DNA from: Bodo saltans
Taxonomy: Eukaryota > Euglenozoa > Kinetoplastea > Eubodonida > Bodonidae
Direction: 5' to 3'
DNA length: 27,062 nucleotides
Assembly (NCBI GenBank): GCA_001460835.1
Contig: CYKH01002041.1
Location: 17,028 to 44,089, forward strand
The position numbers and the translations under genes are program-made. Under the pieces are notes generated by a model, which was given only the letters and a program-made list of their open reading frames with translations, did not search any database and had not been told where the DNA came from. This document shows positions 1 to 25,711 of this stretch, one piece after another; position 1 is the first letter of the stretch, and every line of letters starts with the position of its first letter.

Positions 1-702
1 CTGCTGCTAGGGTTGTCGATTGTTTCTGTCCTCAGTGGCCTTACTGGGTCGAGTGCACAGTGTCGGGGGTGGAGTCTTGTCTCTCTGTTGCTCCTGGTCG
101 CTCAGCTTGTCACTCTTATCGTCGTGGAGCCGCTGACATCAATATTCTCGCACGTTTACGCAATAGCGACCGTGACGTTGACTTGCCTAGGTGTTCTAGC
201 GCAGCTGATTTTCGTCTGGTCGATCGACTCCTTGTGGCTGGTTGACGCCGCTGCTGCGAGTTCGCTGGCGGTGTTGGGCCTAAGCCTGTTGAACATAATG
301 CTGAACGTCACCCAGTTGGTCGCAGCGGTGCGCAGAAGAATTGCGCTGCTATTACAGTTGCGGACGCTCGGCGAGATTGAGCCTGGGCACTTGAGAAAAC
401 CTTCGGTAACCACTGATCTGTTGTTTGTCAGAGACGAATCTTTCGAAATCGATGAACGTTCATCCAAGGAGCTTGTTGATGGCGTCTTGATGATGCCAGA
501 GCATCTCGATGATTCCAAGGAGCTTGTTGATGGCGTCTTGATGATGCCAGAGCATCTCGATGATGTGCATCAACTGCTCGACGATGGTTTGTTTTGGAAT
601 AGTGATGGTGCTGCCGTTGGCACTGGGCTCGTAGAAGGACACTCAGAGATCATTCTGGCACACGCCCCTCTAGAGGAGCCTATGCGCAGTCGGTTTGATT
701 GA
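1..702 (+). CDS. C-terminal part of a multi-span membrane protein (5' truncated by window edge)
   Basis: The frame is open from base 1 and ends at TGA 700-702, so the start lies outside the window. The first ~120 residues hold three to four hydrophobic helices with small loops; the first follows a WSLVSLLLLVAQLV stretch. A hydrophilic, acidic cytoplasmic-type tail of ~110 residues follows. The order of helices and short motifs (SVLS near the start, a W..DAA stretch, and an arginine-rich VRRRI after the last helix) resembles the C-terminal membrane module of the LRR protein at 8972-12655. I infer this is the tail of a related surface protein, but the similarity is weak and judged by eye. The tail contains a perfect 17-residue tandem duplication. 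Specific function unknown. Confidence 0.7.
   Translation: MLLGLSIVSVLSGLTGSSAQCRGWSLVSLLLLVAQLVTLIVVEPLTSIFSHVYAIATVTLTCLGVLAQLIFVWSIDSLWLVDAAAASSLAVLGLSLLNIMLNVTQLVAAVRRRIALLLQLRTLGEIEPGHLRKPSVTTDLLFVRDESFEIDERSSKELVDGVLMMPEHLDDSKELVDGVLMMPEHLDDVHQLLDDGLFWNSDGAAVGTGLVEGHSEIILAHAPLEEPMRSRFD
463..564 (+). repeat. 51-bp perfect tandem duplication inside a coding region
   Basis: Bases 463-513 are repeated without visible change at 514-564. The unit is 51 bp, a multiple of three, and encodes SKELVDGVLMMPEHLDD twice in the acidic cytoplasmic tail of the membrane protein. The lack of divergence suggests a recent slippage or unequal-exchange event and a possible length polymorphism. Confidence 0.93.
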
Positions 703-7941: not shown

Positions 7942-8139
7942 TTGTGAAAGAGAAACATTTTTATCCCCCCATAACTTTGATCATTATGTACTTGTTGATG
8001 TCACACAAAATTCGGTCGTTTCTGGAAACCAGCTTTTTTATGTTAGCCAAGTGCTGATTTTTGTTTGGCAACCTCGGCGAAACATAATTTGGTTTATTAC
8101 CCTTGCACTGATTTTGAAATAAAGCTACGAAGAAACGGA
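7942..8139 (+). promoter_or_regulatory. Spacer and probable splice acceptor before SDHAF3-like gene
   Basis: This 198-bp spacer separates two head-to-tail genes. Pyrimidine-rich stretches (TTTTTGTTTGG, GGTTTATTACCCTTG) precede candidate acceptor AGs at 8123-8124 and 8131-8132, leaving a very short leader before ATG 8140. The spacer is conserved in the inverted copy but shows more substitutions than the flanking coding sequences. Confidence 0.45.
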
Positions 8140-8649
8140 ATGAGGCGATTTTGTGCTTCTCTCGCGCCCCACGTTCCTCAAAAGATTTCTTTGGCGAGAC
8201 CGGCAACTGGTCAGGCCAGCAATTCGTCAGGGTGTGGAACCCAACAACGAGTTGCAGCTTCGCCTATCTTGCAATTGTTGCGTCGTCCTCAAGAGTTAGG
8301 CTCTCAACAGTGTAGCTTCCGCTCGGAGGAATGGCGTCAGTCCATGTTGACATTGTATCGTGTTATCCTCAAACTGCATGCCGTGCGGCTGGAGCCTGTC
8401 CAACGGACGTTCGGTGACAAGTTCGTGAAAAATGAATTCCGTCGTCATGCAATGGCAAATGAAAAGTACGCACGCATTTTCTATTCGTCTTGGGTCGATT
8501 ATATTGTTCAATTGGAGCGTGGAGCAACGTCAAGATCGCTCACCAGAGATGAAGAATCGATGCTTTCAGCAGAGCAGAAAGGGAAGCTTGCTGAAATTCG
8601 GAGCTATGTTGTGCAGCAGCGGCAAACTGACGGTGATTTTACGCTGTAG
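8140..8649 (+). CDS. SDHAF3: LYR-motif succinate dehydrogenase assembly factor 3-like protein (ACN9 family)
   Basis: The 169-residue product carries an LYR tripeptide at residues 72-74 (TLYRVILKLH) followed by FGDKFVKNEFRRH at 91-103. The latter corresponds closely to the GDxYVKxEFRRH signature of SDHAF3/ACN9 proteins. A conserved-type tail includes LSAEQKGKLAEIRSYV. Family members act in the mitochondrial matrix, where they help mature the iron-sulfur subunit of complex II. The ~65-residue N-terminal extension, rich in Arg, Ser and Ala with few acidic residues, looks like a mitochondrial presequence; the human protein is shorter. ATG 8140 is the only start shared by both copies. An intact second copy on the minus strand at 26221-25712 differs at only two residues that I can see (A to P and A to T in the presequence region). 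Confidence 0.85.
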   Translation: MRRFCASLAPHVPQKISLARPATGQASNSSGCGTQQRVAASPILQLLRRPQELGSQQCSFRSEEWRQSMLTLYRVILKLHAVRLEPVQRTFGDKFVKNEFRRHAMANEKYARIFYSSWVDYIVQLERGATSRSLTRDEESMLSAEQKGKLAEIRSYVVQQRQTDGDFTL

Positions 8650-8880: not shown

Positions 8881-8971
8881 ATGGTCGTAGAATACGCTAA
8901 TGTCATTTACTCAATAGCAATCTACGTTACTATGACAATCATGGTAGTCACATGTGGGGGGGGGGGGGGAA
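8881..8971 (+). other. Signal-peptide-coding 5' segment of the LRR gene, out of frame with the main ORF
   Basis: ATG 8881 follows an in-frame TGA at 8866-8868 and is the first ATG after the predicted splice acceptor. It encodes MVVEYANVIYSIAIYVTMTI and then MVVTC, a strongly hydrophobic stretch that looks like a signal peptide or anchor. It runs into the G tract and then terminates at a TGA just beyond it. With 14 Gs this frame is one base off from the LRR frame; 13 Gs would join the two. The LRR ORF alone begins at the cap domain with no signal sequence, whereas the paralogous pseudogene on the minus strand has a signal peptide directly before its cap. This fragment is therefore probably the true N-terminus. 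Confidence 0.75.
8956..8969 (+). repeat. Poly-G tract (14 G) at the signal peptide/LRR boundary
   Basis: Fourteen consecutive Gs lie between the hydrophobic leader and the LRR N-terminal cap. The length sets the reading frame: 13 (or 16) fuses leader and LRR, while 14 or 15 truncates the product. A sequencing length error and true length variation are both possible. Confidence 0.95.
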
Positions 8972-11900
8972 ATGGATTATGATGTTCTCATGGAACTATT
9001 CTACGCAACGAGCGGTAATACTTGGACCAACAACAGCGGGTGGGGCAGCACCTCTGTGGCAATATGCAGCTGGTATGGTTTGGGCTGTACCTCCTCCTCC
9101 TCCACCGCACATGTCAATACGTTTCGACTTAGCAGCAACGGTCTTTATGGTACGCTCCCTTCGAATATCTCGAAACTCACTAGCTTGACTGTGGTCAAAA
9201 TGAGCAACAACGCCTTGTTTGGAACTATTCCTGATAGCTGGTCTACCCTTACTTCTCTTACTGAGATGGCACTAAGCATGAATCAACTTACTGGAACACT
9301 CCCAGCTAGCTGGTCATCTTTGCAGCAGCTCCAATTCTTTGAGGCACACTCAAATAAAATTTACGGAGCCCTACCGAGCAGCTGGGTGAACCTGATAGGC
9401 CTGCGGGTCATCGCACTTGGCAACAACAGCCTCACAGGTGCACTCCCTGAAGGTTGGTCCTCGCTACCACAACTGGAAAGCGTTACGTTGTACATGAACG
9501 GCTTGAGTGGATCGCTTCCTCGTGTGTGGAGTGCAATGTCTCAGCTAAACACGCTGCTTCTCCACCAAAACAGACTCATTGGTGATCTGCCAGATGCATG
9601 GTCAAATTTAACAAGCTTGCAACAGTTGCGCTTGGGCAGCAACCGACTTAGTGGCTCCTTGCCAAACACCTGGAGTACGTTGACGAAGCTATCTTTGCTG
9701 GATGTGAACTCCAACGCACTTGCTGGCACCATACCGGAGGGGTGGATCGCGTCCATGACTCAACTGGCGCAAGTGTCCTTTGCAGTCAACAGTTTGCAGG
9801 GGACATTATCTAAAGGCTGGGCATCGATGAAACTATTGGCGTTTCTGTCCCTTTCTTTCAACCGTTTCAATGGTTCATTGCCTAACTCTTGGAGCGCGCT
9901 TACTTCTGTGCAACAACTACAGTTGGCAAGTAATTCTCTCATCGGAACGCTACCATCCTCGTGGAGTGCGTGGTCACAGGTGTTTCATATGACTCTCTCC
10001 GGTAATCAACTGAATGGCTCACTTCCCAAAAGCTGGGCATCGTTGACTCAGCTGGAGTACCTAAGTCTTGGCTCCAACGAATTAATTGGTGCACTCCCGA
10101 GCAGTTGGAGCGGCATGAGTCGGCTGTCAACCATCGGCCTTGGCAATAATAAGCTTTCAGGTATGCTCCCGAGCAGTTGGGATGCCTACTGTTCCCTCAC
10201 ACTCTTGGATGTTTCCAAAAACCAACTGACGGGAACGCTTCCGAGCAGTTGGATGGCGCTTTCTTTGTTGGGGACACTCTCACTTTGGAACAATCAGCTC
10301 TCGGGAACATTGCCAAGCAGTTGGAGCGGCATGAGCAGGCTGTCATCCATCAGTCTTCAAAATAATCAGCTGTCTGGCACGCTTCCTACAACATGGGCCA
10401 TGTCTTCGTTGACGACGTTATCTCTTGACCACAATCAGCTTGAGGGGACGTTGCCTGATCAGTGGAGTATCACAATGCCCAGTTTATCTTCCCTGTCGTT
10501 ACAATGCAATAGTATTGTTGGCACACTACCTAACAGTTGGGGCAGTATGATCATGATGAGTGTGCTCCACCTTAGCTACAATCTGCTCTCCGGAACACTA
10601 CCCCAGTCGTGGGGCGCCATGCTATCACTTTATTCCCTCAGGCTAGGGAATGGAGACATGGATCAAACCGCCCAATGTTCTGCGATCGCACCGCTGGTGA
10701 GCCACGGTAATCGAATCAATGGGACGTTGCCACAGTCGTGGTCGGCACTGTCGTTCATCACGTACCTTTCCCTTGAAGGGAATCAACTTGATGGATCGTT
10801 GCCAGAAAGTTGGTCGGCGATGACATACGTGATAAATATGTCCTTAGCCCACAATGCCTTCACTGGTTTCCTGCCTGCGAGCTGGAGCGCTATGACGATC
10901 ATGGCAGTGCTGTCACTGAACGATAACAGGTTCACAGGAACCGTGCCACCGGCCTGGGGGCTGATGGGGACACAGCAAATAATCGACGACGATGGTAACG
11001 TCGGTGGAACACTTGAATTAAATTTATCGTCGAACTGCATCCGCGGTGAGCTGCCTCCATCTTGGACTACCGTTGCCCACTTGAGCGGTGTCATGGTGAC
11101 AGTGTCGTCGTGCTTTACTCGTCTTCAAGCGGCATCTGGAAGTGGATGCGGTGTTGGTGCGGTGCCCGCTGAATGCGCATCTTGGTCTGTTGAGAGTTCA
11201 CGATCTTTGTCGTCAACTGCAGTGCTTCAGCCTGTGGCGACACCGACCAGCACACATATGCAGCGATGCTGGTCGACCTCCTCCACAGCAACAACCCCGC
11301 CCCCGCATAATTCGTCATCCACTAATCAAACCCAGTTGTCTATGACAGCAGAAATTAGCAGCCAACAAACTGCCGTTGTAGTCGTGAGTGCCCCCGCTGG
11401 AATTCTGACTGCGCTTGCGGGCTCAGCCTCCATTGCAGTGGGCGTCGTGCGTGGTGGCGCATCTATGCGGCTTGTTGCATGCGGCGGTGATGATGATGAC
11501 CTCGAAACTCTAGCTGGGGGATATCTTGGAGCGTACTGCATTGTATTGGCCGTCGTGCTCTGCTTATTATTCCGACAGCGGCGAACAATTGCTATTTCTT
11601 GGAGCGAAGCTTGTGAGCAGCTTGGAATGCCAGGGCAAGTTTGGGTAGTACTGAGCAGCATCGTATTTCCGCTTGTTGAGTTTGGTCTCTCTCTCATGCG
11701 TGCTTCTGAAAATGACAGATCCAGTGAGGTGTCTCTTGGTGTCGTCGCGTTCTGTGTAGGCTTCGTGTCGCTGGTCTGGCTTATGAGTACAATGACTTGT
11801 CGGTTTCGAGCAGTGTGGCGTGTGGCTCAGAATCAAAAAAGTATTTCCACCGTCCCCAGCAAGAGTTCATTATGCACGTGGATAATGAGCCGCTCTGACG

Positions 11901-12655
11901 GGTACGAAATGGATCGTCGAGGCACGTGGGTGGATGACTTGAGCGCCGCGAAGCACGCGTCTCCAACTTCCTCGTTTGTGGAGTGCAAAGGTGCCGTGTT
12001 TGAGGAGTATTCAGACGGACGCGTGTGGTTTGTCGTGTGGGAGAGTGGCATGGCGATGGTCCTGTCGGTGCTCTCTGCAGTGTCCCAGTTGTCGCCGAAT
12101 GCATGCAGCGTGGCTCAAACTGCAGGCGCCGCGGTGCAGATATGTGCACTTCCTGTGCTTGTTTTGGCGAGGCCCCACCGCAAAGCGCGTGCGTTAGCGC
12201 TAGGAGTCATCGTAGAAATCTTTGGTTTCGTTGGAGGGCTGTGCTTGTTGGTGTCAACGACAACGTCCATTGCTGGCGACCCATGGGGAGATGCAGCAAG
12301 CGTTGCACTTCAAAGCCAACTGTATGTTGGTGTAGCACTATTAATCCTTGACGGACTACACACTGGCCGTATTCGAGATACGTTGCGTCGATGGTTCGGT
12401 GGGTCAAGTGGATTTCTCCCGCAGCGTCGGTTGATGGATGCGCCTGTGTCGGTTAATGTAAGCAACGCTCGGCGGTGTGCGCGCAGTGTTGGTCGAAGTG
12501 ATATTTCCACTGCGAACTTCGGCAATCGTGGTCGCGCGAAGGAGCTTATCTCGAGAATCACTGCGCTTGAAGTTATTGTGGAGATGATCTGCATCCAGCG
12601 CCGCACTGACTCAGGACAATATCTGAATCAAAGACTTTTTCCCTGCTCGGTCTGA
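8972..12655 (+). CDS. GP46/PSA-like leucine-rich-repeat multi-span surface protein
   Basis: The in-frame ATG 8972 gives a 1,227-residue product. The original start is probably 8881 across the G run. The N-terminal cap has a CSWYGLGC motif like LRR N-caps. About 26 repeats of ~24 residues follow (nt ~9115-11090) with consensus LxxNxLxGTLPSSWSxLxxL, the pattern of Leishmania PSA/GP46 surface antigens. Next comes a Ser/Thr/Pro-rich stalk (nt ~11160-11340), then about seven or eight hydrophobic helices (from nt ~11365, ~11520, ~11640, ~11730, ~12030, ~12120, ~12190 and ~12310) and a basic tail. Parasite GP46 is usually GPI-anchored, so a polytopic C-terminus is unusual. The repeats probably face outside and bind ligands. 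Neighbouring repeat units are very similar in places (GMSRLS units near 10110 and 10325), suggesting unit duplication. Confidence 0.85.
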   Translation: MDYDVLMELFYATSGNTWTNNSGWGSTSVAICSWYGLGCTSSSSTAHVNTFRLSSNGLYGTLPSNISKLTSLTVVKMSNNALFGTIPDSWSTLTSLTEMALSMNQLTGTLPASWSSLQQLQFFEAHSNKIYGALPSSWVNLIGLRVIALGNNSLTGALPEGWSSLPQLESVTLYMNGLSGSLPRVWSAMSQLNTLLLHQNRLIGDLPDAWSNLTSLQQLRLGSNRLSGSLPNTWSTLTKLSLLDVNSNALAGTIPEGWIASMTQLAQVSFAVNSLQGTLSKGWASMKLLAFLSLSFNRFNGSLPNSWSALTSVQQLQLASNSLIGTLPSSWSAWSQVFHMTLSGNQLNGSLPKSWASLTQLEYLSLGSNELIGALPSSWSGMSRLSTIGLGNNKLSGMLPSSWDAYCSLTLLDVSKNQLTGTLPSSWMALSLLGTLSLWNNQLSGTLPSSWSGMSRLSSISLQNNQLSGTLPTTWAMSSLTTLSLDHNQLEGTLPDQWSITMPSLSSLSLQCNSIVGTLPNSWGSMIMMSVLHLSYNLLSGTLPQSWGAMLSLYSLRLGNGDMDQTAQCSAIAPLVSHGNRINGTLPQSWSALSFITYLSLEGNQLDGSLPESWSAMTYVINMSLAHNAFTGFLPASWSAMTIMAVLSLNDNRFTGTVPPAWGLMGTQQIIDDDGNVGGTLELNLSSNCIRGELPPSWTTVAHLSGVMVTVSSCFTRLQAASGSGCGVGAVPAECASWSVESSRSLSSTAVLQPVATPTSTHMQRCWSTSSTATTPPPHNSSSTNQTQLSMTAEISSQQTAVVVVSAPAGILTALAGSASIAVGVVRGGASMRLVACGGDDDDLETLAGGYLGAYCIVLAVVLCLLFRQRRTIAISWSEACEQLGMPGQVWVVLSSIVFPLVEFGLSLMRASENDRSSEVSLGVVAFCVGFVSLVWLMSTMTCRFRAVWRVAQNQKSISTVPSKSSLCTWIMSRSDGYEMDRRGTWVDDLSAAKHASPTSSFVECKGAVFEEYSDGRVWFVVWESGMAMVLSVLSAVSQLSPNACSVAQTAGAAVQICALPVLVLARPHRKARALALGVIVEIFGFVGGLCLLVSTTTSIAGDPWGDAASVALQSQLYVGVALLILDGLHTGRIRDTLRRWFGGSSGFLPQRRLMDAPVSVNVSNARRCARSVGRSDISTANFGNRGRAKELISRITALEVIVEMICIQRRTDSGQYLNQRLFPCSV

Positions 12656-13230: not shown

Positions 13231-13345
13231 CTAACTAGGAACAACTAGAGGAGTGGAAACCACAGAATATTTTAACGTCACCAACAAGATGAGGCGTGCG
13301 ACTGCTTTGCACAGGATCTGCTGGCCTCCAACCTCTCTTATCATC
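13231..13345 (+). pseudogene. Decayed duplicate of the giant gene's leader and first codons
   Basis: This stretch aligns with 13448-13570. Both have an ACTAGGAAC block, then CCAACAAGATGAG at the start codon, then GCGACTGCTTTGCACA, and finally a CATCCAAC block. The upstream copy's ATG (13289) reads MRRATALHRI, against MSIATALHKI in the real gene, and stops at TAA 13433-13435 without joining the main frame. It is a partial tandem duplication of the 5' end with a pyrimidine tract/AG of its own upstream (13216-13217). Confidence 0.75.
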
Positions 13346-13505: not shown

Positions 13506-16500
13506 ATGAGCATTGCGACTGCTTTGCACAAGATCCCTTTGGTCTCCACCAAACTCTCTTTGCATCCAACCACACAGTCATCTATTTGCGCTGCAGTCCT
13601 TGTTATCGCTTTGGTTGCCTGCACCGTCGCTGGTGCTGTTGCTCCAACACAGCCGACCTTCAATGCGACTCGGCAATCCGTCATCAACACGGCTGGAACG
13701 TATGTCGTTGACGGTCTTTCTGTTGACACGAATAACGGCCTGCGCATCTTTCCAAACCTTACGAAATCGTACTCGTTGATTATCGACGTACAAGCAGGCA
13801 ACGTGAGTCTAGTTGTAGAAAGGGGGATTCTCTTAGATGTCCTTAACATCCGTGCTACCAACTTCCATGCGATTGTCACCACAGCCGCTAGTGTCAGTTT
13901 CCAGATTAACGACGTTGTTGACAATGTCGATGTTGAGATCGTGGATGGCGGGATCGTCCGCACCATACATGCCGCTACCAGTAATAGCCTCAAATCCCTC
14001 GCCGTCAATGCCAACAACAGTTTCATTGGTGACAAGGAAAGTGTCTTCCTAGTGGTTGATAATGCGCCTTCGTGCGTGACGACTCTGAACTTCGTGAATA
14101 CGTCCAACCCGCCCATCTCACAGTGGTGGCTAGCAGCGCTCGTGAGCGGCAGCGGCGGGCTGGGTGATCTCATGATTACGATGGCCGCCGGCTCACAATT
14201 CACTTTTATCAATCCATTTCTACAATGTATAGAGTGTGCCAATATCTCCCTGCACCTTCTGTCGATGTCAGTCCTCACAATGTGGTCAAGCGGCGGCCTT
14301 TATGTGGCATCAAGCACGAGTGTTCGCGTTGTAGTGGACAACGCAACAATGCACTTGGAGGGAAATATGGTCAACGCCAGTGGCGTATCTGACGATGTGT
14401 CCATCACGATTACCAACGCAACTGTGAAACACCTTGTATTCCTCTATCCCAGCCTCGAAGTGGACGGAGACTTCATCCTCGTGTCGCTGTGGAACTGCAC
14501 TCACGCGACCATCAACATCAGTGACGCCTCTGTGCAGGCTGTTCGCATCGGTTATGCCTTTAATGTTTCCAATGTAGTGATTTCTATGCTCAACTCCAAC
14601 ATCACAACATTCTTCAGTCCGTATGAACTTGAATACCCTACTGTTTCCACAACCACCACAACGACTGTCGTTGTTCTCGCGGTACGGTCGTGTACCATAT
14701 TCAGTCGTTTTGACTCCTCACTTCTCTCCATTTCCAACGTCGCCACATTCCCGACTGCGAGTAGCTCCAGCATTGTGTTGCAGAACAATAACTTTGGTGG
14801 TGCTTGGTCGTCGCTTCTCAGAATGAATATTAGCAATCTTGCAGTTGTTAGTAGCGGTCTTTATCTGACGACTACCATCGCGCTCAACACGATTGACTCC
14901 GTGATCGGTTTGAATTCATTCGCATTCGTTGAGGGATGGCCTCGCCAAGGTCTAACGGTAAGACAAAACTCTGCTCGAATTGTTGTGGGCAGCGTCACTT
15001 TGGTCTCTACAGCGATCATCCTGAACAACCTACCCGCCACTTCAGCTAAATTGTTCGTCGTGGGCAACAACGTCACTACCGAAATGTCTTCGCCGCCTCT
15101 TCCCGCATTGCAAACTGCAGGAAGCGGCTGCACAACTGTTAGTAGCGACACCGCCGCCACTGCTATCTGCTGGAATACCATAATAGTTGTGGGCGCATCC
15201 AACGGCACATCAAATATCGTTGGTCGCGTTGTGCTCCTTAGTAATGGAGTGTGCAACCACGCCTCCTCACTCCTCGCTGATAACACTGTCAACATTAACA
15301 ACTGTGGGGAGAGGTGTGGCAATGTGAGTGTGGTATTCTTCCCGACGTTGGCGATTAGCACACGGGCAAGTGTCTTCCGCAACATCATGAACATCGAATC
15401 TGGCAGCACTGTTGCCACTTGGTCATTTTTTGATCGCCTCAACACAACCGTAGCCATGACAGTCGTTGGTAGTGCCATCATGTCCTTCCCAACGGCGACC
15501 ATTTCAAGTACTCTCTGCAATTCCTATTCCTCATCCACCGCATCGACTGTACTTTGCGCCAATGTTGTGAACTTGAAAGCTAACGCATCGTTGGTTAAGG
15601 GCTCCGTCATTCGGAACAGCTCCATCGGCACATTAAGCGCGGCGCCAGTGCTCAATTTACAAGCGGCGCCTACAGGTCAAGCTTCGGCGAGTATTGGACA
15701 GTTTGACTTCTTTTACCTTAGCAACGCCACCAGCTTTACCGTCAGCAGCCTCACTCTAACCTCGCAGCTTAGCGCCGCGATCCGCCTCCTACGGTCATCC
15801 CTGGTCTTGGGATCAGTCACTTTTGCGCAGTCCCTCACCGTCACGTTCACCGACACATCAAGCGTTGGTGTCAATTTCACTTTCGCGTTTATCGAGGACC
15901 TGAAGTACTCAACTGCCCTCACGATGTCATCACTATCCATCTCGATGAATACCCTGAACGGAAATGCTACAACCGCCATCTGTCTGAAGTGCTTCGTGAA
16001 GGACAACGTCGCCGTGAAGAACAACAATATCGCGATCACCAACAGCCCAATCGCAACGGCATCGATTGCCGGCATTATCTTCGGAACACTCCCGGAGTAC
16101 GATACCGTCGCCACCACCTCCGCGAAGACCGGTGTCGTTCGCGGCAATTTGCTTATTGTCGCGCCCACCGGCGTGAACCCAAGTGGCTCCGCATCCTGTC
16201 CAAGTGGTGCAGATATCTGTGGCAACACGTTATCTCTGAAGGGCACTGGCGTGTCCAACGTGACGGTGTGCCCTGGATGCGGCACGCAGGACCCTAAGTG
16301 GACCGTCACCGTCTCCAACAACGTGTTTGGAATCCAAAGCACAACCTCCCTCGTAACCGTCGCCCTTTGCCCTGGTTGCATCGCGTGGAACGCAGGTGTT
16401 GTTCGCGTCTTCAATCAAAACTTCACTGTCACCGGCGTGTACGATTTCATGATGAACTTCGGTGGTCTTGACGTGAAGAACGGCACGGGCGTGGTGCAAT

Positions 16501-19500
16501 GGAACCAAGTCCGAGCGTCGCCGGCGAATGTATCGCAGATCCTCGATGCCAGCTGGTTTGGAGAGTGCTCCACCATCCCTGCCAATGTGTCTGCTATTTG
16601 CGGAAACTCGGCCATTGTTAACCTCCTGTCTGTTGATCGCGAAGCGAATCTCGTCAGCAGGACGAGGTGGAACACATTAATCACGCAGCAAGCTGGTGCC
16701 GTGTTCTGCTCTAACTGTACCGCACGAGAAAACGCAACCTTGTCCGTCGTCAACAACTACTTCGAGTCCTTCAACACCACCGGTGCCCGCGTCGTGGTGT
16801 GCGATGACTGCCACGCCAGCGGGGACAACATGCGTGTCACGAATGCAACGTCCCTCACCGACATCCTCGCCACCACGTGGAACCGCCTGACTGTTTCGAA
16901 CAACACTGTCATCACTCGCAAAGGGCCCCCCAGCGCGAACTACGTGTACCTCTACGGCAGCTCGTACCTCTCCACCGTTTACGCTACAACAGCAATCTAC
17001 AAGCACAACATTACCTTGTGCTCCCGGTGCACGGCCACCAATGGCGGTAGCTTGCAGCTCTTCAGCAACGCGTACACTCACTTGCTCGACGATGGTCGCT
17101 ACGATAACTTTTCATCGTACCGCAACGGTATTCTTCAAATCAATCAAATCAATGTGACGCTCTGTCATCAGTGCAACTCAACTGGTCCCGAAGCCATGAT
17201 TGCCTTGTACAACAACACAGCAACTGCTGAAGGACAATATTATGGTGGAATGCGAGGATGTGCACAGTGCGCGGTGAATGAAAGCGGTCGAATAATCATT
17301 GCGTCCAACTTGATCACAGTTGCAGGAGGCTACGGAACTGTAGATGCCTTCAACGCCGAACGTTTGAATGTAGGTGCAAACGCCACAGTGCGCATTGCCC
17401 GAAACTACAAGAACACCTATCGGTACAACTCCTTGAGCACCATGCAAGCCCAAGTGGATGCAGCATTGCCAAGTTGCAATGTCGAATTCGCATTGAACCG
17501 CAACGATTCGATTATCTGTGGTAATGTGTTCGCCGCCATCAGCACCAATTGGGGTTACACGCCGACATGGTTTAATCTGGAGGTCTGTCTTTTCTGTAAC
17601 GCGTCTCATCCTGAGCTGACAAACGAAGAAACATTGACAAACGAGAAACTGGTACACGTGTCCATCTCCAAGAACCGTGAGCTTATCATCGCGAACAACA
17701 CGTGGACTATCTGGTATTCAAACCACAGGACATATTTTGGCGAGCAGTGCATTGGAAACGTGTGGATTACAGGCAACAAGCTGACATTGAACAGCATTAG
17801 CACGCTGGATTTTTCATTCTGCGAGAATTGCACTGTTAGCCCAAGCGTGAATGGAACAAACGTCTTCCGCGTCGAGTTCAATAGCGTGACTGGTGTTGCG
17901 TCTACATCAACTGTCGCGCTTGCGAGCTACAAGTCGCATCACGGCGTCATTGTCTGCAACAACACAATGCAGACACAGTACTACACCTTTCAAGCGCCAC
18001 AATTGCTGAACAATGCATCTCGAATTGATGTTGTGTGCATTATTCCGAACTCAACTTGGTCGCACACCACAAACAATTCCGTTCTGATTACATCTTCCGC
18101 AACTTCGTCTCAAATTCTGTGCAGAAGCTGTTTCACGCGAGGGATTGGCTCGATCCAAGTGCACAATCACACGTTCCTGTCCACCGTTTACAGCTCCACA
18201 ACATTGACTCTCTGCATGAACTGTCACGTTTCCATCAACGGTGAGTTGTTAATTCTCAACAACATCTATTACTTAATGTATTCATCTACCGTCAACATTT
18301 TCTTCAACAATCAGATGAACTCTCAGAGTTCTCATCGGGCTATCAACAACGAAATCCTTGCGGGAAGTAGCCTTGACGAGGTTCGCGATAGCGGCTATGC
18401 GGCAATGAAACACCATCGAGAAGATCTCCTTCAGTACTGTCTTAGTCGAGCGCTCAACACAACACCAATGGGCAACAAAGAAAGTCAACTGCGCCTGGAC
18501 AAAGAGATGAGTCAGTATGGCTCTCTGGTATGCGGCAATCAGTTTTTCATTCTTCAATCCAGCTATCTGAATGTTGTCGCAGTGAAGTCCCTAGACGTTG
18601 TGCAAGGTCTCACGCACTACGTTGAAAACAACACTCTCACCACACGATCAAGCATCTATTCAGTTACACTCCAGTGGTGCTATTTCTGCAACGTTTACAC
18701 AGCGCCGCTTCGAGTTGCGCACAACTACGCGCAATTAAGCGGTAGTCAATACGTCACGGTGTTCTTTACGGGGGTGCGAATCTCGTACAAGACGTCCCAG
18801 GTGCACACCATCACCAACAACAATTTCATTGGCACTTCCGACTATTCCCTTAGTAATCCAGAAGACATTGCATTTGCAACAGAAGTACTTCAACGCTCCG
18901 CAAACGCCAGCGAGCTGTGGAACGTTGAATCGGGTACAGTCAACAACACCGTTGTCGCTGTCAACAACTTGTACGGAGCGACAGTGAGCTTGTGTCGTGG
19001 GTGCCAAGTTGCTCAAGGTGCGACGATGTTAATTGTGAAAAATGAAATTCGCCGGAGCAACTCCTTTACATCCAGCAGCTTCACTGACGCAATATCCCTC
19101 TGTCAAGAGTGCACCTTCGCCAACAGCGGCGTGTTCCGTATTTGGAACAACAGCGTTGATGTTCGCAACTCCAGCACGGTTGAGTTTGTTGGCCTTCGCG
19201 ACTTCGACACATACACCGCTCCCTTCCGTGTGCATCGGAACGCTTTCATCGGTTTTAATAGCAGCGTTTTGCCACGACAGTTTTCCGCAACTTGTGGTGA
19301 TTACAACACATCCGAAATCAACGACGATATTTTTGTCCAGCAGGAGATGTGTGGCAATGTTATGAGAGCCAAGAACGCCGTGCAACTGTCTTCTTACCTC
19401 GTGCGTGGTCTGTATGCTCGGTCTTCAGTTCTCGTCGATATCAACACCGTCATTCAGCAGGACGCGACTACCGCTTACACGTATGGGTGTGATGGTTGCT

Positions 19501-22310
19501 TTGGCGAACCTATGAAGCAGCTTATTTTTGTTGACCCCTACGTGGAGGGTGTGGAAGACGTCATCAGCATCGCATCGCCAATTTCCCCGCCATCAAATAA
19601 CTCCACCACCACCACCACCACTCACTCCTTGTCTCCATCACATAGCCACTTGCAGAGTGCCACAACTGCCACTACAAAATCTGGAGTGCTCGTTAACCGT
19701 AACGTCATGGAGGTGCTCCGCTACACATACGTCACGCATCGCCTGCTCTCTGGCGGTGTCACCAACAACTCTGCATACACGGCGTGGAACAACACGCTGT
19801 ACACAACCAGCACGCAGCGCGTGGCCGTCACCATGCTGCACTACACCCTGTGCCTGAACTCCGTCGTCCTCGTGGCCAAGAATTTGGTCACCGACAACGC
19901 TGACGCGGCAAACGCCGTCATCAACAACGTCACCGGCTCACTCGACGACATGGACGACTTCTGCCCCGTTGGCGTGTGCGGCAACACCGCACTGCTCATC
20001 GGTGCGCAGACGTCCTTCTCCACCTTCGCGTACGGCCCCTCGGCGCGGCAAGTCAACGTTGTCAGCAACCAAGTGCTCCTCGACGGAATCTACTCGGCGT
20101 ACGCGACGTTCGTGGCGAACTCCACAGTCGCGTACGCAACGGTCATCGACAACAACGTGACGGCCACGACCTCCATCGCCACCGTCCTCGCGACCGAGAG
20201 CGTCCAGACTGCCAACGGGCAATACGGGTATTTCACGCTTGCGAACAACGTCGTCAACGCCACCGGCAGGACATCAGCCTCGTATCCATCCACCATCCCT
20301 GGTAGTGCTCCGTGTGCACTCCCCAACGGCAACTACACCGTCGTCTGTCAAAACATATTTGCTTTGAGAACCGACTCGTTCAGCGCCGTCTTGGCGCGCT
20401 CCGTCAGCGTGTACCGTGACGTGGTCCTCAAAAGCAACGCCATCGTTGCTTCTGGCGTCCAAAACGCCACTGCCTTCGTTGGTCAGAGCATTCAAACAGG
20501 GTCCCAAGGCGTCGGACTTGCCGCACTGACGATCGAAGGCAACCTGATCGCAATGGAAAACATGGGCGACTTCACCGACACGCAGGACACTTGCTCCACG
20601 CGCTGCGGGGCCGGCATTCGTGCTGCGCAACAAGCGTACATCAAGAACGGTACCGCGCCTGTCCTCTCCATGATCACCACCAACGCGACAATGGCGGCAA
20701 GCATCTGCTTCTTATGCAACGCGAACTATGGTGCGCTGTCCGTCCAGAATAACGGCGTGACGCTGCAGAAAGCCCAGCGCTACCACTGCAACCACTGCCT
20801 CGGTCGTGTCGACCTCTCACTCAGCACAAGCCTCGCCTCGATCCACAGCGGCTTCACCGGCCGACCTCAAAACACGCTTGCTCCCTCCCTCGTGGACGCC
20901 GTGATCTACACGGGCTCCTCGCTTGGCGCCTCAACGACCATCAAGAACAACTACATCACGCTTGATGAACTTGATGTTTCGACTTGCGACGCCACCGACT
21001 TTAGTGGCGTGTGCCCGTCGTTCCACCAGAGCACATACACAGCCAACCTCGTTCGCGCCGTGGTCATGGGCTTCGGCTCCTACGACTCCAACATCAATGT
21101 GCAGTCCAACACAATCCGCGCCAATGTCACCGCCAACAACTCGTTCCTGCTCGGCTCCACCGCCATGGTGGCCGTCCAAGTATCCGCCAAGCCCACCACT
21201 GCTATTATGACAGTACAATCCAACACCATGACGCTGCAGGGTGGATCGCCCCAAGCGTTCGTGTGCGGAGGCATCTCAGACGTGTCTCAAGCTTCCTACG
21301 CAATCTCCATCACTGGCAACACCGCAACTGCGTATGGAAACGAGACGAGCATTGCAGTCTGCCTTGGGTGCTCAGTGAGCTACCAGTCCTTGACGCTGAC
21401 GTCGAACACACTGACGGCAGGGAAAGGAGAGTATGGTAACGGTGCCATCTGTGCAAAGTGCAGCGCTAATCAAAATGCTATCAAGTTTGGTGTGCAAGAC
21501 AACGTTCTAGCATTCACCAACGTGGACACGTTCCGCGGCATTATCGCGTACCTTGTGTCTGCTTACGGCACAGATGTGGTGATCAGGGACAACGCCATCG
21601 GTGCCTCCTCAGGTACATCGCCGACGTTTAGTTTGTCGCAGACGTGCCCAAATACGGATTTCTACATCTGCCACAATACAATTCGTGCGAGCTACGTCAC
21701 CTCCGTTGCCAATACAACAATTTGTGGAGGCTGCTCCATGTCTAGCTCATCCTCTAGCGCGTCACTCTCCGCAACATACAACCAAGTTAATGTGAACTCG
21801 GTGCCCTCGTCCTACACAGTATTCTACGACGGCACCCTATCAGGATCTCGCACCGTAGCAAGCACCAGCAATGTTCAGGGCAACACCGTCACCATTCAGA
21901 ACGTTGTGAACACTTCCATTGTGCCCTTCCAAGTATCGTCGTCCATGGCGACGGCTTTGGTGGCCAACAACATTTTTGATCTCAACAATGCAGGTTCGTT
22001 TGTGCGTGGTTACCTTGTAGGGGGGCCTGCATCACCGTCCGGCTCTGGTAGCGACACGACGTGCATCAAAAATAATGTGATCACCACGTCGGACTCAGCT
22101 GGTATCCTGAGCGGTGCATCTGCGTTGAGCGGCTGCAACACTTCCATCGTATCGAACACCATTCGTGTCTACAACGGAACAGGACTCGGTGGGTGGTCAC
22201 TGATGGGCAGACTTCCGTCGATGCTGTGTGGCACGGTGCTGACCGCTACTCGCATCAACCGACACCGGCGCATTCATCCACCGACGATGCGGGAACAAAA
22301 CAGTTGGTGA
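13506..22310 (+). CDS. Giant Cys-rich parallel beta-helix-like surface protein, 2,934 residues
   Basis: The start is set by the acceptor at 13425. Residues ~25-44 (SSICAAVLVIALVACTVAGA) form a signal-peptide core. Nearly the whole remainder is short beta-strand rungs with NN turns (TVSNNVF, TVSNNTV, VIRDNAI), typical of parallel beta-helix (PbH1-like) solenoids, with very many N-x-S/T sequons. About 22 CxxC motifs recur from nt ~14226 and then from 15978 to 21733 (ICLKC, VCPGC, LCSRC, LCRGC, ICAKC and others), each followed after ~8-12 residues by a strand and an NN turn. A second type pairs one Cys with a later CGN/CxN. Exceptions to the solenoid are a charged helical insert (~1605-1674) and a Thr/Ser/His linker (~2017-2059, with six ACC codons). 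No catalytic residues or C-terminal membrane helix are seen. The last ~37 residues are antisense of the LRR pseudogene, so the C-terminus is probably lost. No named family is recognised; adhesion or protective coat is inference. Confidence 0.85.
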   Translation: MSIATALHKIPLVSTKLSLHPTTQSSICAAVLVIALVACTVAGAVAPTQPTFNATRQSVINTAGTYVVDGLSVDTNNGLRIFPNLTKSYSLIIDVQAGNVSLVVERGILLDVLNIRATNFHAIVTTAASVSFQINDVVDNVDVEIVDGGIVRTIHAATSNSLKSLAVNANNSFIGDKESVFLVVDNAPSCVTTLNFVNTSNPPISQWWLAALVSGSGGLGDLMITMAAGSQFTFINPFLQCIECANISLHLLSMSVLTMWSSGGLYVASSTSVRVVVDNATMHLEGNMVNASGVSDDVSITITNATVKHLVFLYPSLEVDGDFILVSLWNCTHATINISDASVQAVRIGYAFNVSNVVISMLNSNITTFFSPYELEYPTVSTTTTTTVVVLAVRSCTIFSRFDSSLLSISNVATFPTASSSSIVLQNNNFGGAWSSLLRMNISNLAVVSSGLYLTTTIALNTIDSVIGLNSFAFVEGWPRQGLTVRQNSARIVVGSVTLVSTAIILNNLPATSAKLFVVGNNVTTEMSSPPLPALQTAGSGCTTVSSDTAATAICWNTIIVVGASNGTSNIVGRVVLLSNGVCNHASSLLADNTVNINNCGERCGNVSVVFFPTLAISTRASVFRNIMNIESGSTVATWSFFDRLNTTVAMTVVGSAIMSFPTATISSTLCNSYSSSTASTVLCANVVNLKANASLVKGSVIRNSSIGTLSAAPVLNLQAAPTGQASASIGQFDFFYLSNATSFTVSSLTLTSQLSAAIRLLRSSLVLGSVTFAQSLTVTFTDTSSVGVNFTFAFIEDLKYSTALTMSSLSISMNTLNGNATTAICLKCFVKDNVAVKNNNIAITNSPIATASIAGIIFGTLPEYDTVATTSAKTGVVRGNLLIVAPTGVNPSGSASCPSGADICGNTLSLKGTGVSNVTVCPGCGTQDPKWTVTVSNNVFGIQSTTSLVTVALCPGCIAWNAGVVRVFNQNFTVTGVYDFMMNFGGLDVKNGTGVVQWNQVRASPANVSQILDASWFGECSTIPANVSAICGNSAIVNLLSVDREANLVSRTRWNTLITQQAGAVFCSNCTARENATLSVVNNYFESFNTTGARVVVCDDCHASGDNMRVTNATSLTDILATTWNRLTVSNNTVITRKGPPSANYVYLYGSSYLSTVYATTAIYKHNITLCSRCTATNGGSLQLFSNAYTHLLDDGRYDNFSSYRNGILQINQINVTLCHQCNSTGPEAMIALYNNTATAEGQYYGGMRGCAQCAVNESGRIIIASNLITVAGGYGTVDAFNAERLNVGANATVRIARNYKNTYRYNSLSTMQAQVDAALPSCNVEFALNRNDSIICGNVFAAISTNWGYTPTWFNLEVCLFCNASHPELTNEETLTNEKLVHVSISKNRELIIANNTWTIWYSNHRTYFGEQCIGNVWITGNKLTLNSISTLDFSFCENCTVSPSVNGTNVFRVEFNSVTGVASTSTVALASYKSHHGVIVCNNTMQTQYYTFQAPQLLNNASRIDVVCIIPNSTWSHTTNNSVLITSSATSSQILCRSCFTRGIGSIQVHNHTFLSTVYSSTTLTLCMNCHVSINGELLILNNIYYLMYSSTVNIFFNNQMNSQSSHRAINNEILAGSSLDEVRDSGYAAMKHHREDLLQYCLSRALNTTPMGNKESQLRLDKEMSQYGSLVCGNQFFILQSSYLNVVAVKSLDVVQGLTHYVENNTLTTRSSIYSVTLQWCYFCNVYTAPLRVAHNYAQLSGSQYVTVFFTGVRISYKTSQVHTITNNNFIGTSDYSLSNPEDIAFATEVLQRSANASELWNVESGTVNNTVVAVNNLYGATVSLCRGCQVAQGATMLIVKNEIRRSNSFTSSSFTDAISLCQECTFANSGVFRIWNNSVDVRNSSTVEFVGLRDFDTYTAPFRVHRNAFIGFNSSVLPRQFSATCGDYNTSEINDDIFVQQEMCGNVMRAKNAVQLSSYLVRGLYARSSVLVDINTVIQQDATTAYTYGCDGCFGEPMKQLIFVDPYVEGVEDVISIASPISPPSNNSTTTTTTHSLSPSHSHLQSATTATTKSGVLVNRNVMEVLRYTYVTHRLLSGGVTNNSAYTAWNNTLYTTSTQRVAVTMLHYTLCLNSVVLVAKNLVTDNADAANAVINNVTGSLDDMDDFCPVGVCGNTALLIGAQTSFSTFAYGPSARQVNVVSNQVLLDGIYSAYATFVANSTVAYATVIDNNVTATTSIATVLATESVQTANGQYGYFTLANNVVNATGRTSASYPSTIPGSAPCALPNGNYTVVCQNIFALRTDSFSAVLARSVSVYRDVVLKSNAIVASGVQNATAFVGQSIQTGSQGVGLAALTIEGNLIAMENMGDFTDTQDTCSTRCGAGIRAAQQAYIKNGTAPVLSMITTNATMAASICFLCNANYGALSVQNNGVTLQKAQRYHCNHCLGRVDLSLSTSLASIHSGFTGRPQNTLAPSLVDAVIYTGSSLGASTTIKNNYITLDELDVSTCDATDFSGVCPSFHQSTYTANLVRAVVMGFGSYDSNINVQSNTIRANVTANNSFLLGSTAMVAVQVSAKPTTAIMTVQSNTMTLQGGSPQAFVCGGISDVSQASYAISITGNTATAYGNETSIAVCLGCSVSYQSLTLTSNTLTAGKGEYGNGAICAKCSANQNAIKFGVQDNVLAFTNVDTFRGIIAYLVSAYGTDVVIRDNAIGASSGTSPTFSLSQTCPNTDFYICHNTIRASYVTSVANTTICGGCSMSSSSSSASLSATYNQVNVNSVPSSYTVFYDGTLSGSRTVASTSNVQGNTVTIQNVVNTSIVPFQVSSSMATALVANNIFDLNNAGSFVRGYLVGGPASPSGSGSDTTCIKNNVITTSDSAGILSGASALSGCNTSIVSNTIRVYNGTGLGGWSLMGRLPSMLCGTVLTATRINRHRRIHPPTMREQNSW
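22193..22310 (+). other. Fusion junction: giant gene tail encoded by antisense LRR sequence
   Basis: Up to about 22190 the giant protein keeps its rung pattern (IRVYNGTGLGG). From ~22195 the same DNA, read on the other strand, matches the 3' end of the LRR gene (compare nt ~12420-12500: Pro/Arg-rich codons then APVSV). The final residues of the giant ORF (RINRHRRIHPP and so on) are therefore chance coding and lack Cys, NN turns and sequons. The ORF stops at TGA 22308-22310. Confidence 0.75.
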
Positions 22311-25300
22311 CATGCCAGTATCATCACCGAGCCATCGACGCAACGTATCTCGAATGCGGCCGGTGTGTAGCCCGTCAAGGATCATCAATGCAACACCAGC
22401 ATACAGCTGAATTTGAAGTGCAACGTTGGCTGCGTCTCCCCATGGGTCGCCGGCAATGGACGTTGTCGTTGACCACAGCCCTCCAACGAAACCAAAGCTT
22501 TCTATCACGACTCCTAGAAGAAACGCACGCGCTTTGCGGTGGGGTCTCGTCAAAACAAGCACAGGAAGGGCACATTTCTGCACTGCGGCGCCTGCAATTT
22601 GAGCGACGTTGCATGCATTTGTCGACAACTGGGACACTGCAGAGAGAACCAACAGGACCATCGCCATGCCGCTCTCACACACAACGAACCACACGCGGCC
22701 ATCTGAATACTCCTCGAACAAGGCGCCGTTGCATTCCACAAAAGAAGTGGTGGAAGACGGAGAGACGTGTTTCGGGGCGATCACGCCGTCTCCCCACCAC
22801 CCAAGGCGTTTCTTTCGTTGGAGGCGCTCAAGATCCATGAGCTTAAGATTGATGAGCTCGCGGCGGGGATAGTGGAAATTCTTCGACCTCCAGCCATACG
22901 CCATATTGCTTCAAACCGGCACGTCATTGTCCTAAAAAGCCACACGAACGACAACAAACCTACACAAAAAGATATGGCACCAAGAGCGACCTCGCCGATT
23001 CCGCCACTTCCAGAAGCAATAATAAGGGAGAGCCCAAACTCAACGAGTGGAAAAATTATGCTGCTCAGTATCACCCAAGCTTGCCCTGGAATTCCAAGCT
23101 GCTCGCGAGCTTCCCTCCAAGAAATCGCCTCGCGTCGTTGCCAGAGCAATAAGCACAATGTGACGACCAAACAAAGCAGTACGCTCCAAGATATCCCCCA
23201 GCGAAAGCAGCGAGATCCTCATCGCCGCCGCCGCACGCTACGGCAAGCCGCACCGATGCACCACCACGCACGGCGCCAACAGCAATCGAGAGGAAAGCGC
23301 CAGCAACTAGAGTGTTCAGAACCCCAGCGAGGCCACTAGCGATGACGACAGCCGAGTTTGCTGGCTACTAATTGCAACTGGGAAGTAGTTTTGATTGATG
23401 GATGATGAATTATTGGGCGCCAATGTTGTCAGTTGTGCTGGCTGGGGGGTTGACTCGGAGCAGGAGGGAAGGGAGTTCAATGGGTACAGTGTCGAGTGCG
23501 CCAGGACAAAAGACTGATTTGCCGCACTGCACACAGCCACATCGTCCACGCAGAACGAAAACACTACTTGTGCAAAACCGCCCACACCTCCGCATAAGTG
23601 CGTGTGGCACAGCCCGACGCTACCTCCCAGCGCCACCTGAACGATTGAAGACCACGATGACGGAATTGTCCCGCTCACAGAGGTATTCTGCAGGCCAAGG
23701 CCAAAGAGCTTCAGGGAGCTTGAAGAACCACCCCCACATCGGGGGCAGCGATCTGAGCGCCCTCATCGTGCCGAATGAGTCGGGTAGCGAGCCACTCAAT
23801 TGGTTACACTGTAAGAGCTCCACAAGCGTTGCATTGAGCGAGGCGTATGACGCAGGAATAGTCCCAGGAAAGTTGTTGTTACCGAAGCCAATGGTGAGAA
23901 TGTTCCGCCAGGACTCAGCGATAAAAAGCGGCAGTGACCCTTCAACAGCGTTATTGGAAAGGAAAATCCTTTGCAAATTGGTCCACCGAGCAAATGATTC
24001 AGGAATACTCCCACATAGTTTGTTGCTGTTTGCAGAAAAATTTACCAAGCTCGTCCAGCTTCCATATGAAGATGGGAGGCTGCCACTCAGCTGGTTGGTG
24101 GACATGTAGAACGTACTCACCTGCGGACCCCAAAGAGCGTAACCTTCAGGCCGAGTGCCAATCAACTGGTTGCTACCTGCATCGAAAGTTATCAACCCTC
24201 TCCATTGCTGGTAACCATCGGGTAGGACACCAGTTAAGCTGTTTGTGGAAACGTCGAAGTAGTTCAGGTTGACCCACCTCCCAAACTCAGATGGGAGCGT
24301 CCCATTGAACTGGTTCCTTGCAACATTAAACGACTGCAGTTTTGTCCACTGCGCAAAGGTGGGCGAAAGTGTGCCGTTCAGGCCATTGTCCTGGCACGAA
24401 AAGGTTTGCAGTGACGCCCAACTACTGTAGCAGGGAGCGACCCTGTGAGTCTGTTTAAGTAAACGATAAACTGTGTCAGCCCTACCCACTGCTGGTAGTT
24501 CTCAGGTAGGACGCCAGTAAAGCCGTTGGTAGAGATATCTAAGTAGGTCAGGGTGATGAAGTGTGCCGCTCAGGCCGTTGTCCTGGCACGCAAAGGTTTG
24601 CAGTGATGCCCAACTGCTGTAGCTTGTGTCGTAAGTAGCGTCCAATTCGAATACACCGATGGGAGGGTGCCACTCAGCCGGTTGATGGACATGTAAAACA
24701 CGCTTAGTTGCGACCAAGCGCTGTAGACCGCAGGAAGAGTGCCGGAGATGCTGTTCCATGCAGCAATAAACTGTGTCAGCCCTACCCACTGCTGGTAGTT
24801 CTCAGGTAGGACACCAGTTAAGCTGTTTGTGGAAACGTCGAAGTAGTTCAGGTTGACCCACCTCCCAAACTCAGATGGGAGCGTCCCATTGAACTGGTTT
24901 CTCGAAACGCCAAAAGGCTGCAGTTTTGTCCCCTGCCCATAGGAAGTATGAAGTGTGCCGCTCAGGCCGTTGTCCTGGCACGCAAAGGTTTGCAGTGACG
25001 ACCAACTACTGTAGCTAGCAGGGAGCGATCCACTTAGGTAGTTTGACCAGACAGAGAACTCGGATAACGACGTCCAGTTTGAGTACGACGCTGGCAAGCC
25101 ACCTCGTAACTGATTATTGTTCACTTTAAACAATACGAGGGCAAGCCACGATGAACCTAATTCTGGGGGAAGTGTTCCAGCGATGCTGTTAAAGGAAATA
25201 TCAAACGATTTCATGCTTGTCAGCGCCGATAGGCCAGCAGACAACGAGCCGGTGAGGTGATTTCCGCCGAATCGAACAGTCTCAAGCGAGGTCAGGTTTT

Positions 25301-25553
25301 GCAGTATGCCGACAGGGAAGCCACCTCGAAGGTTATTGCTAGCAAGACTGAGTTCGATCACGTCCCTGGTTCCGCTGCTGCAAGTTACACCATACCACGA
25401 GCACATGTCGCTCCCCGACCACGTGGTGTACCACGACGCACCGCCAGTGCTTTCGTTGAAGCGTTGAAGAAGAAGCTGTTGAGTGCTTTGAGCTCCAACG
25501 CACGTCTGCAGTACTACCATGGCAACGGCACCGAGCAGCAGGAGTGAGACCAT
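22197..25553 (-). pseudogene. Degenerate GP46-like LRR surface protein gene with several frameshifts
   Basis: Read from 25553 downwards, it starts MVSLLLLGAVAMVVLQTCVG (signal peptide), then an N-cap with CSWYGVTC, then LRRs of the form LxxNxLxGxLPxxYxxW. The frame breaks near 24640-24490 (several breaks within recombined repeats), ~23745, ~23365, ~23190 and ~22820. Each piece continues in another frame with recognisable homology to the plus-strand LRR gene: GGASVRL with GGYLGAYC; IPGQAWVILSSI then PLVEFGLSL; and DGLHTGRIRDTLRRW near the end. Homology runs to about 22200. The upstream half differs from the plus-strand gene in repeat type, while the multi-span C-terminus is clearly related. 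Two ~75-bp blocks (from 24241 and from 24825) are almost identical, showing internal repeat exchange. A short N-terminal product could still be made. Confidence 0.85.
24241..24898 (-). repeat. Near-identical LRR-unit blocks duplicated within the pseudogene
   Basis: The ~75-bp block from 24241 (encoding LPSEFGRWVNLNYFDVSTN on the minus strand) recurs from 24825. A second block (encoding SLQTFACQDNGLSGTL or close variants) occurs near 24370, 24565 and 24960. The intermediate copies are broken by small out-of-frame deletions, where the frame is first lost. Confidence 0.8.
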
Positions 25554-25711
25554 TGGCGTTGTGGGAACAACGTGGAACGTTTGGCGTGAACACTATTAGT
25601 TTCCGCCTGGGTAATTCCCTTCCTTTGTTTAGTGACAAAAAATCTACTCGAAAGTGCCGTAAAGTGCCGTGAAACGTTGAAAATACAAGAAGGGAATTAG
25701 ACTTTTCCTTT
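25554..25711 (-). other. Spacer between the second SDHAF3-like gene and the LRR pseudogene
   Basis: This 158-bp spacer is unrelated to the equivalent spacer on the left (8650-8880). It contains a perfect 10-bp tandem pair, AAAGTGCCGT at 25651-25660 and 25661-25670. Read on the minus strand, a T6 tract lies before several weak AGs. No clear strong acceptor is visible, in line with a decaying gene. Confidence 0.5.

Follow-up and report, generated by a model that had tools for sequence, protein, structure and literature searches.

The window, meaning the whole stretch of Bodo saltans DNA analysed here (27,062 nucleotides), carries one giant gene encoding recurrent CxxC motifs, with leucine-rich-repeat genes adjoining it. 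Two kinds of cysteine-bearing repeat, termed rungs, are distinguished in its product, namely the CxxC rung and the C-x-N rung, in which a cysteine stands two residues before an asparagine. The main features are as follows:

13506..22310, plus strand: whole gene, open reading frame of 2,934 amino acids with 22 CxxC motifs and 77 sequons
13506..13643, plus strand: putative signal peptide, residues 1–46, with a hydrophobic core at 27–45 (from hydropathy alone)
13644..15950, plus strand: N-terminal part, presumed to be membrane-distal, carrying a single CxxC, which is atypical, and C-x-N rungs at residues 557 and 686
15951..22210, plus strand: CxxC-bearing repeat region, holding 21 of the 22 CxxC motifs as well as C-x(n)-C-x-N rungs, in putative coils with Asn turns, each about 31 residues long
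16269..16607, plus strand: block 1, rung order CxxC, CxxC, plain, C-x-N (residues 922–1034); its second CxxC rung is missed by the mechanical rule
18993..19358, plus strand: block 2, same rung order (residues 1830–1951), also found by mechanical typing
21360..21677, plus strand: block 3, same rung order (residues 2619–2724), also found by mechanical typing
22211..22310, plus strand: out-of-family tail, after the end of identity to contig C930
22253..23413, minus strand: inverted remnant, 76% identical to the leucine-rich-repeat gene 8954–12655 in the 3' part of the latter, following the truncated CxxC gene

Several other genes were recognized in the window. On the plus strand, 8954–12655 encodes 1,233 residues with leucine-rich repeats (Pfam LRR_1, E 1.3e-42). 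The C-terminal third of this protein contains eight hydrophobic segments, in which it resembles the leucine-rich-repeat class of bodonins. A second leucine-rich-repeat gene, split into several frames, follows the truncated CxxC gene on the minus strand (22253–25592). At the left end of the window, 1–702 (plus strand) holds the C-terminal piece of a multi-pass protein, which is related to the membrane region on C930 (E 1.2e-20) and contains a short internal direct repeat, KELVDGVLMMPEHLDD being present twice. Ahead of this piece, the contig consists of N in the stretches examined. A small LYR-motif protein is encoded at 8065–8649 (plus strand; Complex1_LYR_2, E 2.6e-11). An upstream frame of 5,908 residues was considered as a giant neighbour and rejected, as this frame is a run of N.

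The frame and coordinates originally given for the CxxC gene are correct: it begins with an ATG at 13506, its stop codon ends at 22310 and its product has 2,934 amino acids. The open frame already starts upstream, at 13293, which leaves the start codon uncertain. The hydrophobic segment at residues 27–45 is compatible with the proposed signal peptide, as judged by hydropathy. Ser, Thr and Asn make up 11.8, 10.7 and 9.1% of the whole protein, respectively, the RGD tripeptide does not occur in it, and 44 of its 84 cysteines (2.9% of the residues) belong to CxxC motifs. The N-glycosylation sequons, which had been described as dense, are indeed present in number (77), but their excess over shuffled sequences is modest (mean 58.6, maximum 79 in 1,000 shuffles).

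A search of the genome (29.3 Mb, 934 contigs) located the extracellular part of this protein only on C821, which carries the window gene, and on contigs C544 and C930; tile searches added a single further match, at E 0.1. The C544 paralogue is 72% identical (2,059 of 2,871 aligned residues) and retains all 44 CxxC cysteines and 77 of the 84 cysteines overall. Between these two genes, dN/dS is 0.15 over 2,795 codons, with a high dS of 1.2. By tile, the ratio is 0.28 for residues 50–449 and 0.10–0.18 for the six following 400-residue tiles, while the last tile, of only 32 codons, gives 0.36. Given the overall ratio of 0.15, the sequence comparison indicates a functioning protein under purifying selection, which is looser in the N-terminal part. 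As an observation on the assembly, the C544 frame is broken by a direct duplication of 449 bases (L007 from 8909 to C544 about 58805), whose copies are exactly adjacent and 99.8% identical; the duplication may be real or an assembly fault.

The C930 copy starts at contig base 1, inside the gene. The window gene is identical to it in 574 of 591 bases (97%; 17 mismatched or gapped columns) up to position 22210, where homology to the family ends. Since the family homology ends there and the frame stops at 22310, the window gene has no anchor as assembled, and as read, its product would be secreted rather than anchored. The repeats had been thought to extend over almost 2,900 residues, but the last 32 residues (from base 22211) lie outside the family; neither the break nor the loss of the anchor formed part of the earlier account. 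The break at 22210 is either a true rearrangement or an assembly misjoin. We lean slightly towards a misjoin, the genuine 3' half of this gene then lying on C930. This would account for the start of C930 at base 1 inside the gene, for its 97% identity to the window gene as far as 22210 and for the opposite-strand gene remnant behind the truncated gene, and the run of N ahead of the window also speaks for it. Nevertheless, the 17 differing columns among 591 would suit two alleles or two paralogues equally well.

Beyond the end of the window gene, the C930 frame runs on into sequence without CxxC rungs. It continues with a Ser/Thr/Pro-rich stalk (41% over residues 601–985), an EGF-like stretch containing 41 cysteines in 265 residues, which has no Pfam match and no match in PDB sequence searches, and a second Ser-rich stretch. 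The frame ends with seven clustered hydrophobic segments (residues 1736–2016) followed by an acidic tail. The count of seven is soft, because these segments score no higher (1.61–1.88) than four segments inside the repeat region of the window protein (1.61–1.79, by hydropathy). The C930 membrane region has at least 77 matching rows in the genome at E ≤ 0.001, itself included, a lower bound in which some rows are pieces of one gene. C544 shares the middle part of the C930 continuation (63% identity over 594 residues), behind which it has a stalk rich in Ser/Thr/Pro, a single strong membrane segment (score 2.9) and a short tail. Because C544 ends in one strong segment, and C930 in an EGF-like stretch and about seven weak ones, one extracellular design appears, from these sequences, to have been placed on two different anchors in the L008 and L009 relatives (C544 and C930). 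The window gene itself lacks both the roughly seven C-terminal membrane helices and the intracellular part.

A regular solenoid had been proposed for this protein, and the periodicity of its Asn-turn motif supports such a regularity, the fold itself being a matter of reasoning from sequence. The motif h.h..N.h.h occurs 33 times in the window protein, compared with a mean of 8.2 and a maximum of 19 in 1,000 shuffles. Twelve of its 32 consecutive spacings measure 27–36 residues, whereas random placement gives a mean of 2.8 and none of 5,000 placements reached 12. The lags between all pairs peak in the bins 28–34, 58–64, 88–100 and 118–130, without any fitted model. The shorter motif h..N.h is found 65 times versus 29.2 in shuffles (maximum 44 of 300) and, in the C544 paralogue, 66 times versus 26.8; in both proteins its lags peak at 26–38, 58–70 and 90–98 (where the last bin ends), corresponding to a period of about 31 residues. 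Few turn sites precede residue 428, and the spacing of the sites is irregular in places. Although 24 anchors of the Asn-turn position matrix were chosen by eye, these pattern counts are independent of eye-picked sites.

Two proteins of this genome that Pfam Beta_helix matches served as controls. They contain h..N.h 31 and 49 times, versus 8.9 each in shuffles, with peaks near 23, 46 and 68 residues, while a protein bearing DGF-1_C showed neither an excess (9 versus 12.5) nor a period. The longer motif was not enriched in the two Beta_helix controls (3 versus 1.3, maximum 5; 0 versus 1.7), nor in the C930 continuation (3 versus 0.85, maximum 5; 1 versus 1.7). Therefore, only the short motif ties the window protein to known beta-helices. 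Giant Pfam Beta_helix proteins of the genome, L056 (open frame of 2,979 residues) and L057 (3,926 residues, a figure inflated by a run of N), have a clean 23-residue Asn-turn period and, by profile, no CxxC rung.

The noted number of about 22 CxxC motifs agrees with our count of exactly 22, far above the mean of 2.4 and the maximum of 9 in 2,000 shuffles. Neither CC nor CxC occurs, and cysteine spacings of 4 to 7 are found 0–2 times each. A profile of the CxxC segments comprises a strand, C-x-x-C, 4–6 residues often including Gly, a second strand, the Asn turn and a third strand. When each segment was left out in turn, the profile told 16 of 22 apart from their flank-shuffled versions, with at most 10 of 200 such nulls allowed to reach the score of the segment. 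Two segments were borderline (residues 1539 and 2740, 13 of 200 nulls each) and four were not recognized (residues 241, 1725, 1995 and 2428); segments 241, 1361 and 2428 had been kept out of the training because of poor alignment. The described succession of a hydrophobic CxxC turn, a strand and an NN turn is thus recovered in most, but not all, of the segments. Among the loci searched, the rung profile matched those from C821, C544 and C930, and not L055–L057; most of the other loci reach about 1.5 kb to either side of a membrane region, so that CxxC rungs may exist elsewhere in the genome.

With respect to position, an Asn turn follows 9–17 residues after CxxC in 12 of the 22 cases by the mechanical rule, and the distance is 11–14 residues in 14 of 22 with a turn-site list that includes 14 sites chosen by eye. 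Seven pairs of CxxC are spaced 27–36 residues apart, which is about one coil. These distances and pairs support the placement of CxxC at one corner. However, 21 of the 22 motifs are confined to residues 826–2743 and most turn sites carry no CxxC (43 of 68 lack any cysteine rung by mechanical typing), so that the motif does not run along the entire protein as envisaged. Likewise, a continuous ladder of cysteines is not supported, with 22 CxxC for an estimated 90 coils, and vicinal disulfides, the other arrangement proposed, are excluded because CC does not occur.

A second type of cysteine rung, which the earlier account did not include, has the cysteine of C-x-N preceded by a partner cysteine 5 to 31 residues earlier. 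This C-x(n)-C-x-N pattern was counted nine times in the window protein, against a shuffle mean of 0.67 and a maximum of 5 in 2,000 shuffles, and ten times in the C544 paralogue. Moreover, the order CxxC, CxxC, plain, C-x-N is present three times in the window protein (blocks 1–3). This recurrence suggests that the protein may have grown by blocks of four coils.

Homology searches did not assign the repeats to a family. The window protein has no match above cut-off in Pfam, NCBIfam or PHROGs, C544 and C930 have none in Pfam or NCBIfam, and C930 has none in PHROGs either. Pfam Beta_helix matches 72 rows in the genome, and the window protein is not one of them; PDB sequence searches returned two matches at chance level (E 1.3 and 1.2). 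Profile scans of a prokaryote collection (genome_contigs) and a virus collection (viral_contigs), using two short peptide patterns per collection for alignment A1, gave 35 and 65 stretches, respectively, none of which was confirmed; as these collections hold prokaryotes and viruses, the scans reveal little about protists. AlphaFold gave a mean pLDDT of 30.2 with a two-sequence alignment (A2) and of 39.2 with twelve internal-repeat rows (A3), and Foldseek found no match at E ≤ 0.001 in the PDB for either of these low-confidence models. Several weak Foldseek rows were beta-helix proteins; because the models are poor, they were given no weight. At such confidence, structure prediction speaks neither for nor against the continuous right-handed solenoid that had been expected. 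The statement that no named family fits is correct for the extracellular part, which matches no model, but not for the layout of the relatives, which is of the bodonin/DGF-1 type.

From the strand and turn pattern, we infer that the repeats are probably coils of a pectate-lyase-like right-handed parallel beta-helix. In mapping them onto this fold, we assign CxxC to the first corner, the Asn turn to the second and the variable loops to the third. The window protein and Pfam Beta_helix or pectate-lyase-like proteins share the turn core h..N.h in regular repetition, but the former differs in its period (about 31 instead of 23), in lacking a Pfam match, in its corner CxxC and, compared with the two Beta_helix controls, in the longer strands around Asn.

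An alternative is another beta-rich architecture, either stacked small beta-domains or a different solenoid, in which CxxC would form ordinary loop disulfides. It gains from the lack of a confident model and of any family match for the repeats, from the longer turn motif being unenriched in genuine beta-helix controls, from the 43 of 68 turn sites without a cysteine rung and from the locally irregular spacing. This lack of enrichment and the weakness of the C930 segments make the beta-helical rod less probable and this alternative more so. Nevertheless, we regard it as unlikely, since the window protein shares its turn core with the Pfam beta-helix proteins found in the genome and a single period accounts for the whole series of lag peaks.

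Metal binding at Cys4 sites, formed by CxxC pairs that stack at a distance of one coil, is a further alternative, for which the seven pairs spaced 27–36 residues apart and two faint zinc matches (zf-C4pol, E 2.9; IS1/IS1595 zinc domain, E 0.034) could be cited. Both matches are well under their cut-offs, for 8 of the 22 CxxC there is no second CxxC at one coil's distance, and the hydrophobic N-terminus and the sequons indicate an oxidising secretory route, so metal binding seems quite improbable. A match of the CxxC segments to a zinc-binding or EGF-like domain, which would have counted against a solenoid, was looked for, and no zinc-finger or EGF model scored above the curated cut-off. We give hardly any credence to the idea that this is a cysteine-rich variant surface protein like the VSPs of Giardia or the immobilisation antigens of ciliates, for although recurrent CxxC in a protist surface protein is a feature of these, the window protein has 2.9% cysteine, far below the roughly 11% of Giardia VSPs, sets its CxxC in a strand and Asn-turn repeat and has no match in the family libraries used (Pfam, NCBIfam and PHROGs).

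Returning to the beta-helical reading, the nearest known systems are bodonin of B. saltans and DGF-1 of Trypanosoma cruzi. Both are described as having large glycosylated extracellular parts with autotransporter-like or pectin-lyase-like folds and, respectively, about seven or 8–9 membrane helices (PMC4728078, PMC9967923); for bodonin, the fold is described there from fold prediction alone (PMC4728078). The extracellular part of bodonin is reported to be large, Ser/Thr/Asn-rich and sequon-rich (PMC4728078), as is that of the window protein; the family means given there are 14.8, 10.4 and 5.6% for Ser, Thr and Asn. Bodonins form a multi-copy family, and the C930 relative likewise ends in a hydrophobic region with at least 77 rows in the genome. 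Leucine-rich-repeat genes with multi-pass ends adjoin the window gene, which is also bodonin-like, whereas the single membrane segment of the C544 relative is not. DGF-1 is described as having pectin-lyase-like parts, EGF-like signatures and cysteine-rich motifs along the gene (PMC9967923). These motifs may be related to the CxxC rungs. Unlike DGF-1, the window protein has no RGD, and the Pfam model DGF-1_C (PF11040), with 30 rows in the genome, is missing from C821, C544 and C930; 18 of these rows exceed the cut-off alone and two more do so jointly with their neighbours, against none in 14 control genomes. Together with the 77 rows of the C930 membrane region, this distribution points to a kinetoplastid as the probable source of the DNA. 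No DGF-1 model is among the Pfam matches of the window, C544 and C930 frames.

Taken through its relatives, the window gene thus resembles bodonin and DGF-1 in its predicted layout, with bodonin known here by its published description. The abstract openings and passages of the bodonin and DGF-1 literature searched contained no description of CxxC rungs or of a 31-residue coil. ChloroIBP, a disulfide-bonded ice-binding beta-solenoid, is comparable in that it is secreted and its model is a right-handed beta-helix, one side of which bears seven predicted disulfides, but it has only 34 kDa, its predicted disulfides cross-link loops, and the passages of its description available mention no corner CxxC repeat (PMC4838330).

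Overall, we consider it somewhat probable that the gene encodes a disulfide-stapled beta-helix rod belonging to a surface glycoprotein of the bodonin/DGF-1 type. The window gene would then represent most of the extracellular part of such a giant glycoprotein, and each repeat of about 31 residues would form one coil of a right-handed parallel beta-helix. The first corner would be formed by CxxC, in which strand 1 ends, the second by the Asn turn, with strand 2 on one side and strand 3 on the other, and the third by variable loops. CxxC would close as a disulfide within its own turn and, in the second rung, a first-corner cysteine would bond to the cysteine two residues before Asn. As the protein is apparently secreted, we take these staples to be disulfides and not metal sites. 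Together, they may yield a protease-resistant rod of about 90 coils, which at a coil spacing of 0.48 nm, as given in PMC4838330, would measure about 44 nm if residues 47 to 2,903 were fully coiled; this is an upper estimate, as turn sites are sparse before residue 428. Against the rod count the low-confidence AlphaFold models, the lack of a Beta_helix Pfam match, the period of about 31 instead of 23, the presence of an anchor only in the relatives and the putative nature of the disulfides.

Such a rod would hold the faster-evolving N-terminal tip away from the membrane, and the window copy would have lost its stalk and anchor at 22210. Bodonins have been suggested, as speculation, to attach to prey and substrata (PMC4728078). 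Following this published speculation, the tip would most likely serve in attachment to prey or surfaces, and a stapled rod with a faster-evolving tip fits this proposed role. The same source proposes bodonins as ancestors of trypanosome and Leishmania surface proteins, including T. cruzi DGF-1 and Leishmania PSA (PMC4728078). It is possible, although we hold this more tentatively than the rod itself, that these proteins constitute a new class of beta-solenoid, with coils of about 31 residues, corner CxxC and C-to-CxN staples in alternation, growth by four-coil blocks, rods of about 45 nm and a cassette mounted on two anchors, of which that of C544 passes the membrane once and that of C930 combines an EGF-like stretch with about seven passes. 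With its readable coil period, its conserved staples and its relatives on different anchors, such a protein would offer a concrete, testable model of how a giant rod is constructed, and would bear on how exchangeable parts came together in the surface of a free-living feeder.
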